The position numbers and the translations under genes were made by a program. From contig QKGS01000065.1 in assembly GCA_003250355.1 (NCBI GenBank), positions 1 through 50,315 on the forward strand: a DNA stretch of 50,315 nucleotides. Reading direction: 5' to 3'. The notes under the pieces are model-generated. The model saw nothing but the letters and a program-made list of their open reading frames with translations, ran no database searches and was not told where the DNA came from. Of this stretch, positions 1,795-5,414 are shown piece after piece (within the stretch, counting starts at the first letter, position 1; each line of letters starts with the position of its first letter). The DNA is from Bacteroidota bacterium. Its GTDB lineage: Bacteria > Bacteroidota > Bacteroidia > Bacteroidales > SZUA-534.

Positions 1795-3233
1795 TTACAC
1801 AAACATTTTCTGCAACAACCCTCTCTTATACTCCTTAGCCTGCTCTATCTGCGTTTTTACACCGTTTATTTGCTCGTCAATTTTTGACAAGAAATCGGCT
1901 ATCTTTTGTTGTTCTTCGAGGCAGGGGATTTTTATTCTAATCTTCATCAATTCAACTTTTGACATGTTATACCTTGTACTACCCTGTGCCAGCTTTATTA
2001 TTTCTTTGCGAAACTGAGTTGAACGAAACAGATATTGGGAATGCATAGGAACAAGCTGTTCTAAACAATTAGGCCTATACCCAAAACAAAAGCTATTCAG
2101 ATACATTTCCTCCACTTCAGACAATAACACTGATGCAGTCCCTATCTCAAGTGGTGTTTCTGAAGATGTTGTAAAAAAAACATCTCCATATTTAACTTTA
2201 TTTTGTGACTCCTCATTGCTAATATAAACTTTATTGCACTCATCTATTTTTATAAATGAATTGGAGAAAATTTGCATGTATTGAATAAATGGAGCTCCGC
2301 TGCCAAAATCATCTTTTGTTTTACCGCTTAAACCATTGTAAGTTTTTCCAACCTCCCCCAACTTCTTCTCTTCCCACTCTTCAAACTCGCTGCCATCTGC
2401 TTGTTTAAAGCGTAGGCGCTTGGGGTCGCCTTTAGGAGCAAAAATGCGTTGCATTACCCCTTTTTTATATTGTTGCAGTAGGGTGTGTTCTTTTTCAAGG
2501 CTGCTTATGTAGTCGTCAACCGCCGTTAAAAACGAGGCTATCTCTTTTGTTGCTCGGGGAGGGAGGGGAGAGATATTTTTATTCTATAAAAATCACCATG
2601 ATTTAAGTCTGGAATTGTTGAAGTTCCTGCTAGTTTTAATATTGTATTCTGAGTTTTACTATGACGCAAAAAGTAAACTAAATATTCCTTATTTATTTGT
2701 GAAGATTCATACTTGATTTTAAAGAAATTATTATGAAAAGCACCATTAACACCAGTTACAACTTGACCAGTATTTCCAGTTCTAGTCATTAGTATATCAT
2801 TTGCATCGCATATTACACTTTTGGGTGGATTTAATATGAAATACCTTTTGTCAGAGCTTTGCTTTAAAAACTCATTAGTAATATAGAAATAACTGTTTTC
2901 AATGGATTCAGTATATCTATCAGAGATAGGTATTTGCAAACCTTGATTTATTTTTGTTAAATGTTTTAGTTTTTTTAAAACCCATTTCCCATTAAACTCA
3001 GGAAACCTTAGTTGTGGTGTATTTTGTTTGCACTGCCTTCGACTCCGCTCAGGCAGCGAGGACATAGGTAGCGTATGCTTAGTCATCGAAGACTCCGGCA
3101 ATGAAGATTCGGATAGCGAGGACTCAGGAAGCGAATACGAAGGCTCGCTCTCTGTTGTTTCGGCTTTACTCAACGACTGGTCATTAATAGTTTGTTTATT
3201 ATTCATATCATCACTTAGAGATTCTTTATTCAT
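1795..3233 (-). pseudogene. hsdS: Type I R-M specificity subunit split by a 2-base frameshift
   Basis: HsdS recognises the DNA target through two target-recognition domains separated by helical spacers. The first half (3233-2538) holds a serine-rich extension, then TPQLRFPEFNGKW, TRD1, and ends SLPSLPEQQKR. The second half (2454-1795 if started at its ATG) holds KRLRFKQADGSEFEEWEEK, TRD2 and the final spacer ending YKRGLLQKMFV. Between them the DNA still encodes IASFLTAVDDYISSLEKEH and LLQQYKKGVMQRIF in another frame. Removing one AG dinucleotide at 2541-2545 restores a single continuous protein. The break therefore looks recent, or could be a sequencing error. Two half-subunits could in principle assemble, as half-HsdS proteins can dimerise in known systems. 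The first half carries about 60 extra N-terminal residues rich in Ser, Leu, Pro and Glu that come from repeat-like DNA. Confidence 0.85.
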
Positions 3234-3243
3234 TTTGCTTGTC

Positions 3244-3361
3244 TTCGGCTTCGCTCAGACAACTTTCGGCTTCGCTCAGACAACTTTCGGCTTCGCTCAG
3301 ACAACTTTCGGCTTCGCTCAGACAACTTTCGGCTTCGCTCAGACAACTTTCGGCTTCGCTC
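3244..3361. repeat. Tandem array A: six 21-bp units with core GGCTTCGCTCA
   Basis: The core GGCTTCGCTCA occurs at 3247, 3268, 3289, 3310, 3331 and 3352, an exact 21-bp period; units 1-5 carry CAGACAACT after the core and the sixth decays to CATACC. The array fills the space directly before the hsdS start codon at 3233, so in the operon transcript it forms the hsdS leader. It shares the core CTTCGCTCAGACAAC with array B on the other side of the GIY-YIG gene. Similar TTCGACTCCGCTCAG-type repeats are common between genes in Bacteroidota. Confidence 0.95.
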
Positions 3362-3396
3362 ATACCTTTATCACATCTATCTTCTGCCGCCGCTAC

Positions 3397-3427
3397 CTTC
3401 GACTCCGCTCAGGTAGCGGAGTCGAAG
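3397..3427. repeat. Perfect palindrome, 13-bp arms with 5-bp loop, at the 3' end of the GIY-YIG gene
   Basis: Arm CTTCGACTCCGCT (3397-3409) is exactly complementary to AGCGGAGTCGAAG (3415-3427) around the loop CAGGT. An alternative hairpin, CGCTACCT (3391-3398) with AGGTAGCG (3411-3418), overlaps it, so two competing folds are possible. The stop codon of the GIY-YIG gene lies at the loop. The arm is the same sequence family as arrays A and B, which makes it look like the parental REP-like element. Confidence 0.93.
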
Positions 3428-3723
3428 CCAAGGTGCGATGTTTCATTCATACACTTTGCTAAATCATGTAACAATTCCGGCATATTGTTTATTAAAGCCT
3501 CTTTCTTTTTTCTACTCCACCCTTGCACTTGTTTTTCTCGGTAAAAGGCTTCATCAATTCTATCAAATTCTTCAAAATATACCAATTCAACCGGCAACCG
3601 TTTTTTTGTATGGTTTGCACCTTCACCATTTTGGTGTTGCTCCAGCCTACGGTTCAGGTCTTTTGTACTACCAGTATAGTACGAATCGTCATTGCATTTC
3701 AATATGTACATATATCCTTTCAT
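3409..3723 (-). CDS. Small GIY-YIG nuclease domain protein
   Basis: 104 residues from the ATG at 3723; a start at 3759 would add 12 residues (MSERSRRQ...) translated from repeat DNA and is less likely. The signature YMYILKCNDDSYYTGST matches the GIY and YIG strands, followed by the conserved Arg (NRRLEQHQNG) and the catalytic Glu in FYREKQVQGW. This is the short single-domain (UvrC N-domain/YhbQ-like) class. Members cut or nick DNA; the cellular role of the solo form is poorly known. The last codons (GFDSAT and stop) are encoded by the palindrome at 3397-3427, and array B lies just upstream. The gene and its repeats separate hsdM from hsdS, an unusual position that suggests insertion as a unit. 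No other nuclease domain or DNA-binding region is visible. Confidence 0.88.
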   Translation of the reverse strand: MKGYMYILKCNDDSYYTGSTKDLNRRLEQHQNGEGANHTKKRLPVELVYFEEFDRIDEAFYREKQVQGWSRKKKEALINNMPELLHDLAKCMNETSHLGFDSAT

Positions 3724-3733
3724 ATTATATAAT

Positions 3734-3833
3734 TTTTGTCTTCGACTTCGCTCAGACAACCCGACTTCGCTCAGACAACCCGACTTCGCTCAGACAACCC
3801 GACTTCGTTGACTGAGCGGAGTCGAAGTCAAAA
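3734..3833. repeat. Tandem array B: four 19-bp units ending in an inverted copy, forming a long imperfect palindrome
   Basis: CGACTTCG recurs at 3743, 3762, 3781 and 3800 (19-bp period), each of the first three followed by CTCAGACAACC. The array closes with an inverted element at 3812-3833. Its 22 bases match the reverse complement of 3734-3755 at 20 positions, so the whole array can fold into one long hairpin. The right arm supplies the hsdM stop codon (TGA, 3830-3828), meaning the element sits exactly at the end of hsdM. The unit is related to array A but has a different length, so the two arrays were amplified separately from a common core. Confidence 0.93.
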
Positions 3834-5414
3834 CGGCGTTGGTATTCCTAATTCAGTACAAAATCCTTTTATGCTCTCTTCTGTTTCTTTTCGGTTGTTG
3901 CGAACTGTTACAAGCTCATTTGCAACAGCGGTCAAATCAACAGGTTCTTCTTCCTCAAAGGTATCTACATAACGTGGTATATTAAGGTTGTAGTCGTTTT
4001 CGGCTACTTCGCTTAGTGGTGCGGTGTAGCTGTATTTATCTTCGGTTTTGCGCTCGTTGTAGGTAGCAACTATTTTTTCTACATCGCATTCACGTAGGTA
4101 ATTTTGGTTTTTAGCTTTTTCAAAATGGTTACTGGCATCAATAAACAGAATATCCTGGTTGCTTTCACGGCATTTTTTAAATACCAAAATACATGTAGGA
4201 ATACTAGTGCCGTAAAATATATTGGCAGGTAAACCAATAACGGCATCTAAGTAATTGCGGTCTTCAATCAAATAACGGCGAATATGCCCTTCGGCTGCTC
4301 CACGGAACAATACACCGTGTGGCAGAACTATAGCCATAGTTCCGTTTTCGTCCAACTGGTGTATCATGTGTTGCACAAAGGCAAAGTCGGCCTTGCTGCT
4401 TGGGGCAAGCACTCCGTACTCCGAAAAGCGGTCGTCGTTCAGAAACAGTTTATTGGCACTCCAGTTAGCCGAAAACGGCGGGTTAGCTACAATAGCTTCG
4501 AAACGTTTATCGGAATGTTGTGGTTTTTCGAGCGTATCTTCTTGCTTTATGTCGAACTTGCTGTAGTGTACACCATGCAGAATCATGTTCATGCGAGCAA
4601 GGTTGTATGTGGTACGGTTCATTTCCTGACCGTAAAACTCGCTAATATCGCTAACCTCTTTGGCAACACGCAACAGCAACGAACCCGAACCACAGGTAGG
4701 GTCGTACACGCTGCGTAATTTGCTTTTGCGCTGTGTAACCAATTTTGCAAGTATTTTACTTACCTGCTGTGGTGTGTAAAACTCACCTGCCTTTTTACCT
4801 GCACCCGAAGCAAACTGCCCAATAAGATATTCGTAGGCATCGCCCAGTACATCGGCATCGGAGTTTTGCAGTTCAAAGTCAATGGCATCGAGATGGCTCA
4901 GTACTTTTGCAATTATGGTGTTGCGCTCTTTTACTGTACGCCCCAGTTTTGTAGATGTAAGGTCGAGGTCTTCAAACAGGTTTCCAAAGTCGTCTTCGCT
5001 GTCAGTTCCCAGTGTGCTTTGCTCTACGTGCTTTAATATGGCTGCAAGCTCTTCAAGTATAAAGTTGCTTTGCACTTCGGCTTCTTCATCGTCAGACTTG
5101 GCGTTTCCTTTTTTAGCTATCACGCTAAATAACTCTGAAGGTTTAAGGAAGTAACCCAAGCTATCCAAAGCTTCTTCACGAATAGCTTCTATATATTCTT
5201 TACCTTCATCGGTATCTTCATTTATACTCTGATAGGTGATTTTATCTTCCTGTAATATCTCGTTAGCGTAGTTATTCATCCGCTCCGACAGGTATTTGTA
5301 AAATATAAATCCTAATATATAATCACGGAATTCATCGGCATCCATTTTACCACGCAGGGTATTGGCAATATTCCATAGCTGCTGTTCCAGCTTTCGTTTC
5401 TGTTCTTCTGACAT
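3828..5414 (-). CDS. hsdM: Type I R-M DNA methyltransferase (M subunit)
   Basis: 528 residues, normal length. The helical N-terminal domain (residues about 5-160) starts QQLWNIANTLRGKMDADEFR. The N6-adenine methyltransferase domain has the GEFYTPQQV entry motif near residue 210, the AdoMet-binding motif DPTCGSGSLL near 238-247 and the catalytic NPPF at 311-314. HsdM methylates adenine in host DNA as an M2S complex and joins HsdR for restriction. It is the first gene of the operon. Its last codons (GIPTPF and stop) abut repeat array B, so the native 3' end may have been slightly altered. No lesion is visible, so methylation would depend on whether the broken hsdS still gives a functional partner. 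Confidence 0.95.
   Translation of the reverse strand: MSEEQKRKLEQQLWNIANTLRGKMDADEFRDYILGFIFYKYLSERMNNYANEILQEDKITYQSINEDTDEGKEYIEAIREEALDSLGYFLKPSELFSVIAKKGNAKSDDEEAEVQSNFILEELAAILKHVEQSTLGTDSEDDFGNLFEDLDLTSTKLGRTVKERNTIIAKVLSHLDAIDFELQNSDADVLGDAYEYLIGQFASGAGKKAGEFYTPQQVSKILAKLVTQRKSKLRSVYDPTCGSGSLLLRVAKEVSDISEFYGQEMNRTTYNLARMNMILHGVHYSKFDIKQEDTLEKPQHSDKRFEAIVANPPFSANWSANKLFLNDDRFSEYGVLAPSSKADFAFVQHMIHQLDENGTMAIVLPHGVLFRGAAEGHIRRYLIEDRNYLDAVIGLPANIFYGTSIPTCILVFKKCRESNQDILFIDASNHFEKAKNQNYLRECDVEKIVATYNERKTEDKYSYTAPLSEVAENDYNLNIPRYVDTFEEEEPVDLTAVANELVTVRNNRKETEESIKGFCTELGIPTPF

Follow-up and report, generated by a model that had tools for sequence, protein, structure and literature searches.

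A small GIY-YIG nuclease gene of Bacteroidota is flanked by hairpins of constant loop and variable stem, with the loop type following the C-terminal tail of the protein

Small GIY-YIG proteins of the Ssn family are reportedly site-specific single-strand nucleases, of which the Neisseria meningitidis member, Ssn, is reported to go with the NTS repeats (Nat Commun, 2025). The members of this family reportedly have cognate short repeats in the genome and differ from one another in specificity, and control of DNA uptake is reported for Ssn. This is probably the closest known system, and our best reading is that the nuclease treated here is close to it: as far as Ssn is reported, the two have in common the small size of the GIY-YIG protein, genomic short repeats that are cognate to it, and members of differing specificity, and the cognate repeat was indeed found in the same genome as the nuclease. 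The two differ in that, here, the loop of the repeat is constant while the stem varies, the loop type follows a motif in the C-terminal tail of the protein, and the units often reside in type I restriction-modification (R-M) operons and are widespread in Bacteroidota. An earlier note on this DNA had supposed a REP-like system with a different enzyme, which would not be wholly new if Ssn is as reported.

The REP/REPIN-RAYT systems (REPtrons) resemble the present one in that the gene of a DNA-cutting enzyme is flanked by hairpins that, at least in some genomes, are also found elsewhere, sometimes as inverted doublets, and that the hairpin type is linked to the enzyme. In contrast to REPtrons, the enzyme here is GIY-YIG instead of HUH-Y1, no GT[AG]G foot is present, and the loop, not the stem, is constant. 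Free-standing GIY-YIG homing endonucleases share with the present gene the GIY-YIG domain and, at one site, variation in presence and absence, but no intron or single target gene was seen here, many hairpins surround the gene, and the protein is one small domain with no separate DNA-binding domain in Pfam. In Rickettsia, palindromic elements are carried inside protein genes, and palindromes within protein genes were observed here as well; the present ones differ in their link to a nuclease gene, around which they cluster. The Rickettsia elements are mentioned in PMC3733652, and PMC1564403 belongs to the further literature for comparison. Among the titles and abstracts searched, we found no paper treating a link between GIY-YIG genes and hairpins, and a search with the loop strings retrieved no paper. 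We know of no partner enzyme for Bacteroidota repeats of this type before, and such a partner is proposed here.

The window, i.e., the whole stretch of 50,315 nucleotides analyzed, contains the nuclease gene between two R-M genes, hsdM upstream and hsdS downstream. The features of this region are as follows (type I refers to the loop described below).

1795..2454, minus strand: hsdS half-gene, second specificity domain (Methylase_S, 2e-18)
2538..3233, minus strand: hsdS half-gene, first specificity domain, downstream neighbour (Methylase_S, 9e-12)
3033..3056, plus strand: type I hairpin CTGCC/GGCAG, 5 bp, in frame in the N-terminal part of the hsdS ORF
3239-3262, plus strand: first unit of array A, a full hairpin TTGTC/GACAA, 5 bp
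3244..3362, plus strand: array A, type I loops (TTCGGCTTCGCTCA) repeated in tandem with a period of 21, 5.7 copies, 100% matches
3390..3419, plus strand: type I hairpin, 8-bp stem CCGCTACC/GGTAGCGG, loop 3398-3411, overlapping the palindrome (3397-3427) and the nuclease stop codon
3397-3409 and 3415-3427: perfect palindrome, 13-nt arms, 5-nt spacer
3409..3723, minus strand: GIY-YIG nuclease gene, 104 aa, ATG at 3723, stop at 3409-3411 (PF01541, 2.8e-19)
3433..3453, minus strand: codons of the tail motif CMNETSH, residues 91-97 of the GIY-YIG protein, of the class going with type I loops
3736-3759, plus strand: first unit of array B, a full hairpin TTGTC/GACAA, 5 bp
3743..3807, plus strand: array B, type I loops repeated in tandem with a period of 19, 3.4 copies, 100% matches
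3808..3831, minus strand: type I hairpin in reverse orientation, stem TTGAC/GTCAA, 5 bp, containing the hsdM stop (3828-3830)
3828..5414, minus strand: hsdM, type I R-M methyltransferase subunit, upstream neighbour (N6_Mtase, 8e-114; HsdM_N, 3e-18)

Array B and the reverse hairpin are thus placed upstream of the GIY-YIG gene, and the palindrome and array A downstream. We counted 12 copies of the core CGRCTNCGCTCA in the window, whereas 100 dinucleotide shuffles gave 0.03 on average and never more than 1, and six of the eight copies of CGACTNCGCTCAG in the whole 3.70-Mb genome are at this locus. We therefore regard as real the arrangement that the earlier note had described, namely a period-21 array, a period-19 array, and a palindrome with 13-nt arms flanking one small GIY-YIG gene. 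The finer details of that description were borne out as well: the GIY-YIG ORF ends inside the palindrome, the hsdM stop lies inside the right stem of the last hairpin, and array A abuts the start of the downstream hsdS ORF at 3233. The hairpin at 3033-3056 is a further repeat absent from that description. The GIY-YIG ORF as listed starts within array B, with TTG at 3759, but translation more likely begins at position 3723, with an in-frame ATG. Most of the array units keep the loop without a paired stem, and the first unit of each array retains 5 bp.

Several other genes of this genome were recorded alongside. The hsdS gene is split into two ORFs (1795-3233) with one specificity domain each, and the first ORF has an N-terminal low-complexity stretch of approximately 70 residues, which holds the in-frame hairpin (read as PERSRRQ). 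Next to the R-M genes, positions 653-1762 encode a protein with an HTH and an IrrE-like peptidase, matched by the RmrA models of PADLOC (best 1e-47), and beyond it is a 164-aa ORF (149-643) without a Pfam match. The other two CGACTNCGCTCAG copies of the genome are both inside R-M genes, one within another hsdM reading frame with the hairpin GTAAC/GTTAC (L081:5769; G000:C33:31768) and one within a gene for a type ISP R-M enzyme with almost no stem (L082:5404; G000:C81:64403).

To compare the surroundings of the gene, we used the best 80 of the 271 candidates from a scan of the genome collection, which were 67-84% identical to the query over the best segment. Most of them were from Bacteroidota, and ten were in records titled as other groups (Ignavibacteria, Cloacimonadota, Calditrichota, Acidobacteria, Brevinematales, Dojkabacteria, Kuenenia, and Electronema); as the records from outside Bacteroidota are all metagenome bins, some of these assignments may be wrong. 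Within 500 bp of the gene, the core CGRCTNCGCTCA was matched 219 times in 100,189 bases, in contrast to 55 matches in 1,069,529 bases further out in the same 80 loci, a density near the gene 42 times that elsewhere. The core was found near the gene in 54 of the 80 loci and further out (in flanks of up to 10 kb) in 19. Most of the 26 loci lacking the core within 600 bp have type II or III loops (see below), and 78 of the 81 loci, the window included, bear loops of types I-III within 800 bp of the gene; loci at contig ends or masked were kept in these counts as misses. The downstream loop is at a median distance of 31 bp from the gene, with the nearest one in plus orientation in 66 of 75 cases, and the upstream loop is at a median of 40 bp, with the nearest in minus orientation in 35 of 52. 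A comparison of the kind that the earlier note had asked for yielded an enrichment of the repeat near GIY-YIG genes, and the settings free of the repeat, which would have spoken against a dedicated partnership if they were the norm, are the exception in this subfamily, although they prevail in distant GIY-YIG groups. Together with the tail-loop correspondence given below, the 42-fold enrichment and the presence of loops in 78 of the 81 loci support the GIY-YIG gene as the dedicated partner of the repeat.

The association was also seen at the level of genomes. The exact type I loop TTCGACTNCGCTCA was found in 66, the type II loop in 35, and the type III loop in 86 of the 149 Bacteroidia genomes searched, with few matches to a reversed control pattern. 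When the presence of the nuclease was scored as a match to the window protein at E<=1e-10, 45 genomes had both the type I loop and the gene, 21 the loop only, 25 the gene only, and 58 neither (p of 3e-6). Genomes with many repeats and no such gene had been considered as a finding against the partnership, and the 21 of the 66 loop-bearing genomes without a GIY-YIG match, which include G038 (192 copies) and G017 (107), are in part of this kind. Among 52 genomes, the cognate loops were commoner where the matching tail was present, with medians of 6 versus 1, 7 versus 0, and 32 versus 2 (p of 0.008, 3e-4, and 7e-5, respectively; the type II tail occurred in only 3 of these genomes). In some genomes, loops were abundant without the matching tail, up to 68 for type I and up to 51 for type III.

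The repeat unit became clear when 270 copies from 55 loci were compared. The type I loop TTCGRCTNCGCTCA, 13-14 nt long, is nearly constant, and the arms on its two sides, a stem of approximately 5 bp, vary from copy to copy yet are complementary to each other. After the removal of duplicates, 166 distinct arm pairs remained, of which 89, 90, 90, 62, and 55% were complementary at the first to the fifth stem position, respectively, compared with 55, 33, 37, 41, and 28% in a control, in which the right arms were dealt anew; position 6 paired at the chance level. All four pair types were seen at positions 2 and 3. Since the arms differ between copies but still pair, the unit is a hairpin whose loop is constant and whose stem varies. 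The shared core of the repeats, which the earlier note had pointed out, holds, and constant-loop, variable-stem hairpins describe the feature better than a single palindrome family. The same kind of stem encloses sister loops, TTCGAGWGCCTCA (type II) and TTCGACARGCTCA (type III). The arms of type III (30 pairs) pair like those of type I, and the signal in type II (46 pairs) is weaker because the arms vary less. The type IV unit comprises TCGATAC, an inner hairpin (in the examples read), and then ACTC, inside paired arms. Variant loops were noticed at L160 and L078 (TCGACAAGCTC, and TCGACTTCGCTC in CACC/GGTG); the genes there have tails of the forms LSKS and CKNET.

The case for structure is made by the covariation of the arms and not by folding energy. 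In the predicted fold of 3391-3432, the 13-bp palindrome was formed (-16.2 kcal/mol, z of -6.4) and the 8-bp hairpin was not, and array B with the reverse hairpin gave a z of -3.2. The two short hairpins of the window folded alone as DNA, at 3030-3062 (z of -0.2, 79 of 200 shuffles as good) and 3236-3262 (the first unit of array A; z of -1.2, 28 of 200), were similar to many shuffles, by which the idea of a folded strand is weakened.

The C-terminal tail of the nuclease predicts the version of the surrounding hairpin. The catalytic core is well conserved, but several classes can be told apart by the last 10-20 residues. We compared this class with the commonest loop type near each gene, leaving aside the proteins shorter than 80 aa and those whose first 88 residues were identical to those of another. 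In the full set of 215 distinct proteins, 90 of the 93 CxNx[ST] tails went with type I (3 with none), all of the 24 Y[RK]D tails with type II, 9 of the 10 YxQ tails with type III (1 with none), and all of the 27 L[SA]KK tails with type IV, the last type having been defined after viewing these very flanks (in-sample) and counted with no chance control. These four classes showed no crossing of loop type. The LSK[NSR] tails were mixed (13 type III, 2 type II, and 2 none; n=17), as were the other tails on the core of the family (1 type I, 4 type II, 5 type III, 3 type IV, and 3 none), and 26 of the 28 proteins of distant GIY-YIG groups had none of the types I-IV near the gene (the remaining two, 1 type II and 1 type III). 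For type IV, the informative part is that it is dominant in no other tail class save the 3 "other" tails.

The full set was built in two steps. The first set of 151 distinct proteins gave 64 type I and 8 none for CxNx[ST], 21 of 21 type II for Y[RK]D, 7 of 7 type III for YxQ, 8 type III and 1 none for LSK[NS], 2 type I and 6 none for L[SA]KK, and 2 type II, 4 type III, and 28 none for the other tails. The second set comprised 27 new loci from a search of 395 genomes of the phylum and 40 more listed matches (n=65 after subtracting one duplicate and one short protein); the tail rules and loop patterns were left unchanged, and these data are from outside the definition of the first three tail classes. 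There, CxNx[ST] went with type I in 20 cases (2 none), Y[RK]D with type II in 3 of 3, YxQ with type III in 2 (1 none), and LSK[NSR] with type III in 5 and type II in 2 (1 none), and the other tails gave 1 type I, 3 type II, 2 type III, and 4 none. With types I-III scored, the L[SA]KK tails of the second set had 1 type I and 18 none; as 24 of the 27 L[SA]KK proteins lacked types I-III, we searched their flanks and found the fourth loop.

The tail-loop match extends to proteins whose cores share only approximately 45-60% identity with the query. When 108 proteins were placed on a tree built from their first 72 residues, the loop type required 22 changes, compared with 38 when shuffled. The well-supported branches offer only one to two independent tail contrasts per class, so that the correspondence could rest on few evolutionary events. 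Minority loop types coexist at some loci, such as L289 with 8, 3, and 5 loops of types I, II, and III, respectively. The tails LSRRK, LSKRKF, LSLRK, and LSRKP (L315, L338, L319, and L304) go with type II and perhaps represent a further class. As a separate matter, we rejected the idea that the tails are encoded by the hairpins themselves, as none of the motifs CxNxT, YRD, YxQ, and LAKK was seen by eye in the readings of the loop sequences.

The protein is a UPF0213-like member of the GIY-YIG superfamily according to Pfam (2.8e-19), and its best PDB matches, 1zg2 and 1ywl, are both UPF0213 proteins. Y6, Y16, R26, H30, and E63 are invariant in 54 aligned sequences, the window protein included, and we take Y6, Y16, R26, and E63 to be the places of the catalytic Tyr, Arg, and Glu of the GIY-YIG domain. 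The AlphaFold2 model has a mean pLDDT of 87.9 with a confident core, and its tail (approximately 50) is poorly ordered. The nearest folds are UPF0213 proteins, followed by the structure-selective nuclease Slx1, at an E-value of only 0.0075; Slx1 is a nuclease for branched DNA. The searches with the nuclease against the PADLOC defence families (E<=0.01) and PHROG retrieved no match.

Judging from the sequence comparisons, namely the gene-hairpin link, the architecture of loop and stem, the tail-loop match, the R-M neighbourhood, and the presence and absence at one site (the latter two given below), we consider it probable that the gene encodes a site-specific GIY-YIG endonuclease, whose C-terminal tail would recognise the constant loop of the hairpins around its own gene. 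As the stem would only have to pair, the likely substrate would be a folded single strand, such as may arise in replication, DNA uptake, or repair. The stems vary and the loops are constant, so that the protein most likely reads the unpaired loop, and this would fit a single-strand nuclease. An RNA hairpin is also a possible substrate. Cutting or nicking at the hairpins would, we infer, make the clusters of repeats prone to recombination, which would explain why a unit is present in one genome and absent in its relatives, why the tail and the flanking hairpins change jointly, and why units are frequent between hsdM and hsdS. Cutting might lead to movement of the unit, to exchange of hsdS, or to control of DNA uptake, the role reported for Ssn. 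A bolder version, which we put forward tentatively and rather doubt, is a modular code, in which the tail would read its cognate DNA-hairpin loop on any stem, the tail and hairpins would be exchanged together, and the units, independent of RAYT, would become established in type I R-M operons and remodel these. The approximately 180 nuclease-hairpin pairs provide a ready table for tests of specificity by swapping the short tail and, if the reading of a loop-recognising nuclease is true, cutting of single strands or hairpins in a sequence-specific manner would be useful as a tool.

The strongest rival to a loop-recognising nuclease is a selfish REP-like or homing-like element, in which the nuclease would spread its own gene and the hairpins by copying or moving them, in the way proposed for RAYTs and REPs; we take this idea seriously but lean somewhat against it. 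Dispersed copies and inverted doublets approximately 36-71 bp apart occur in several genomes (with few copies in others), and kin at 70-80% identity were found in bins titled Ignavibacteria, Cloacimonadota, Acidobacteria, Kuenenia, and others, both of which would suit such an element. On the other hand, type I copies are most numerous, among the 149 genomes, in G038 (192) and G017 (107), and the only PF01541 matches of these two are in long reading frames of UvrC-like length; further cores were found in only the 19 of the 80 loci noted above. The loops of G038 and G017 may be remnants after the loss of the gene or may have been spread by something else. In 400 kb of G038, 16 of the 25 type I copies are in inverted doublets 43-44 bp apart, and 13 copies are on the plus and 12 on the minus strand; an apparent run of plus copies disappeared over this length, and a strand bias was rejected. 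Many of the more than 100 type I loops each in G038 (L215-L234) and G017 stand as inverted doublets.

The unit varies in presence at one site. In G083, a 3.97-kb segment contains, near its right edge, the nuclease gene and its hairpins, along with other genes, and it is missing at the same site in the congeners G003 and G048, in which the flanks are nearly contiguous. This presence and absence would be expected of a selfish element, but the single insertion examined carries other genes, and no target duplication was seen in the comparison of G083 with G003 and G048. The matches in 13 plasmid records were all below 60% identity, and among 91 candidate stretches only two distant viral contigs were found, which also stand against a selfish element. 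Carriage by a phage or plasmid was rejected on these counts and on the lack of a PHROG match.

The surroundings of the gene bear on a second rival, in which the unit would serve the type I R-M operon, the nuclease and the hairpins between hsdM and hsdS promoting the exchange of hsdS and thereby a change of specificity. We regard this as rather unlikely. With queries taken from the window and the 81 loci, hsdM or hsdS was found adjacent to the nuclease gene in 23 of the 81 loci (window included), in contrast to 37 of 1922 random points (2%) from the same loci, and 10 of the 81 have hsdM before and hsdS after the gene. Pfam searches of the neighbours are concordant, with N6_Mtase in 17 of 72 upstream proteins (77 less five long ones) and Methylase_S in 15 of 69 on the downstream side. 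The hsdM genes at L014 (type I), L069 (type III), and L059 (type II) are related to one another, and at each of these loci the nuclease gene comes next without an intervening hairpin; the tail and the downstream hairpins, in contrast, differ. Against a service to the operon, 58 of the 81 loci are not beside hsd genes by the adjacency test, and R-M operons are themselves variable regions, in which many genes land. Why the nuclease-hairpin units gather in R-M operons is a question raised by the proposed partnership as well. The end of the hsdM coding sequence at L014 and L059 has type III- and type II-like strings, with a type III-like hairpin in both. Among 20 regions with low-copy type I loops, two (L272 and L276) have the loop in a long ORF of 532 and 496 aa, respectively, apparently hsdM and near its end, as the regions match hsdM.

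A role of the hairpins at the RNA level, as terminators or mRNA stabilisers, with only a chance link to the nuclease, is very improbable. The hairpin structure and the mostly single orientation of the nearest downstream hairpin (66/75) would be in keeping with such a role, but the hairpins occur in both orientations throughout and some are inside reading frames, no Rfam match was obtained at the repeats (the sole hit at the gathering score in the window is a tRNA), and neither the enrichment near the gene nor the tail-loop correspondence would be expected of a chance link. Finally, mobilisation of the hairpins by a RAYT (Y1 transposase), with the GIY-YIG gene as a passenger, is scarcely credible: atypical flanking structures are reported for RAYT subclass 2.6 of Bacteroidetes in PMC6006769, and 11 of 14 repeat-rich genomes have a PF01797 match (E<=1e-3), but none of the 20 Y1 loci scored for types I-III (the best 20 of 40 listed PF01797 places, from 7 genomes) had such loops within approximately 800 bp (13 had other hairpins), a GIY-YIG gene being what sits beside these loops, no Y1 match was found in G038, G125, and G009, and the GT[AG]G foot occurred at 19 of 397 hairpin sites against 17 for a reversed control.

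Two further observations were made in the course of the survey. A separate palindromic repeat family, GTCATTGCGAG...CTCGCAATGAC, is present in L170, L267, L186, L192, L196, and L200. At L182 (G089:C2:234372-235265) and L183 (G118:C6:299058-300068), very small GIY-YIG genes of different subfamilies stand in tandem with a spacing of approximately 345-408 bp.
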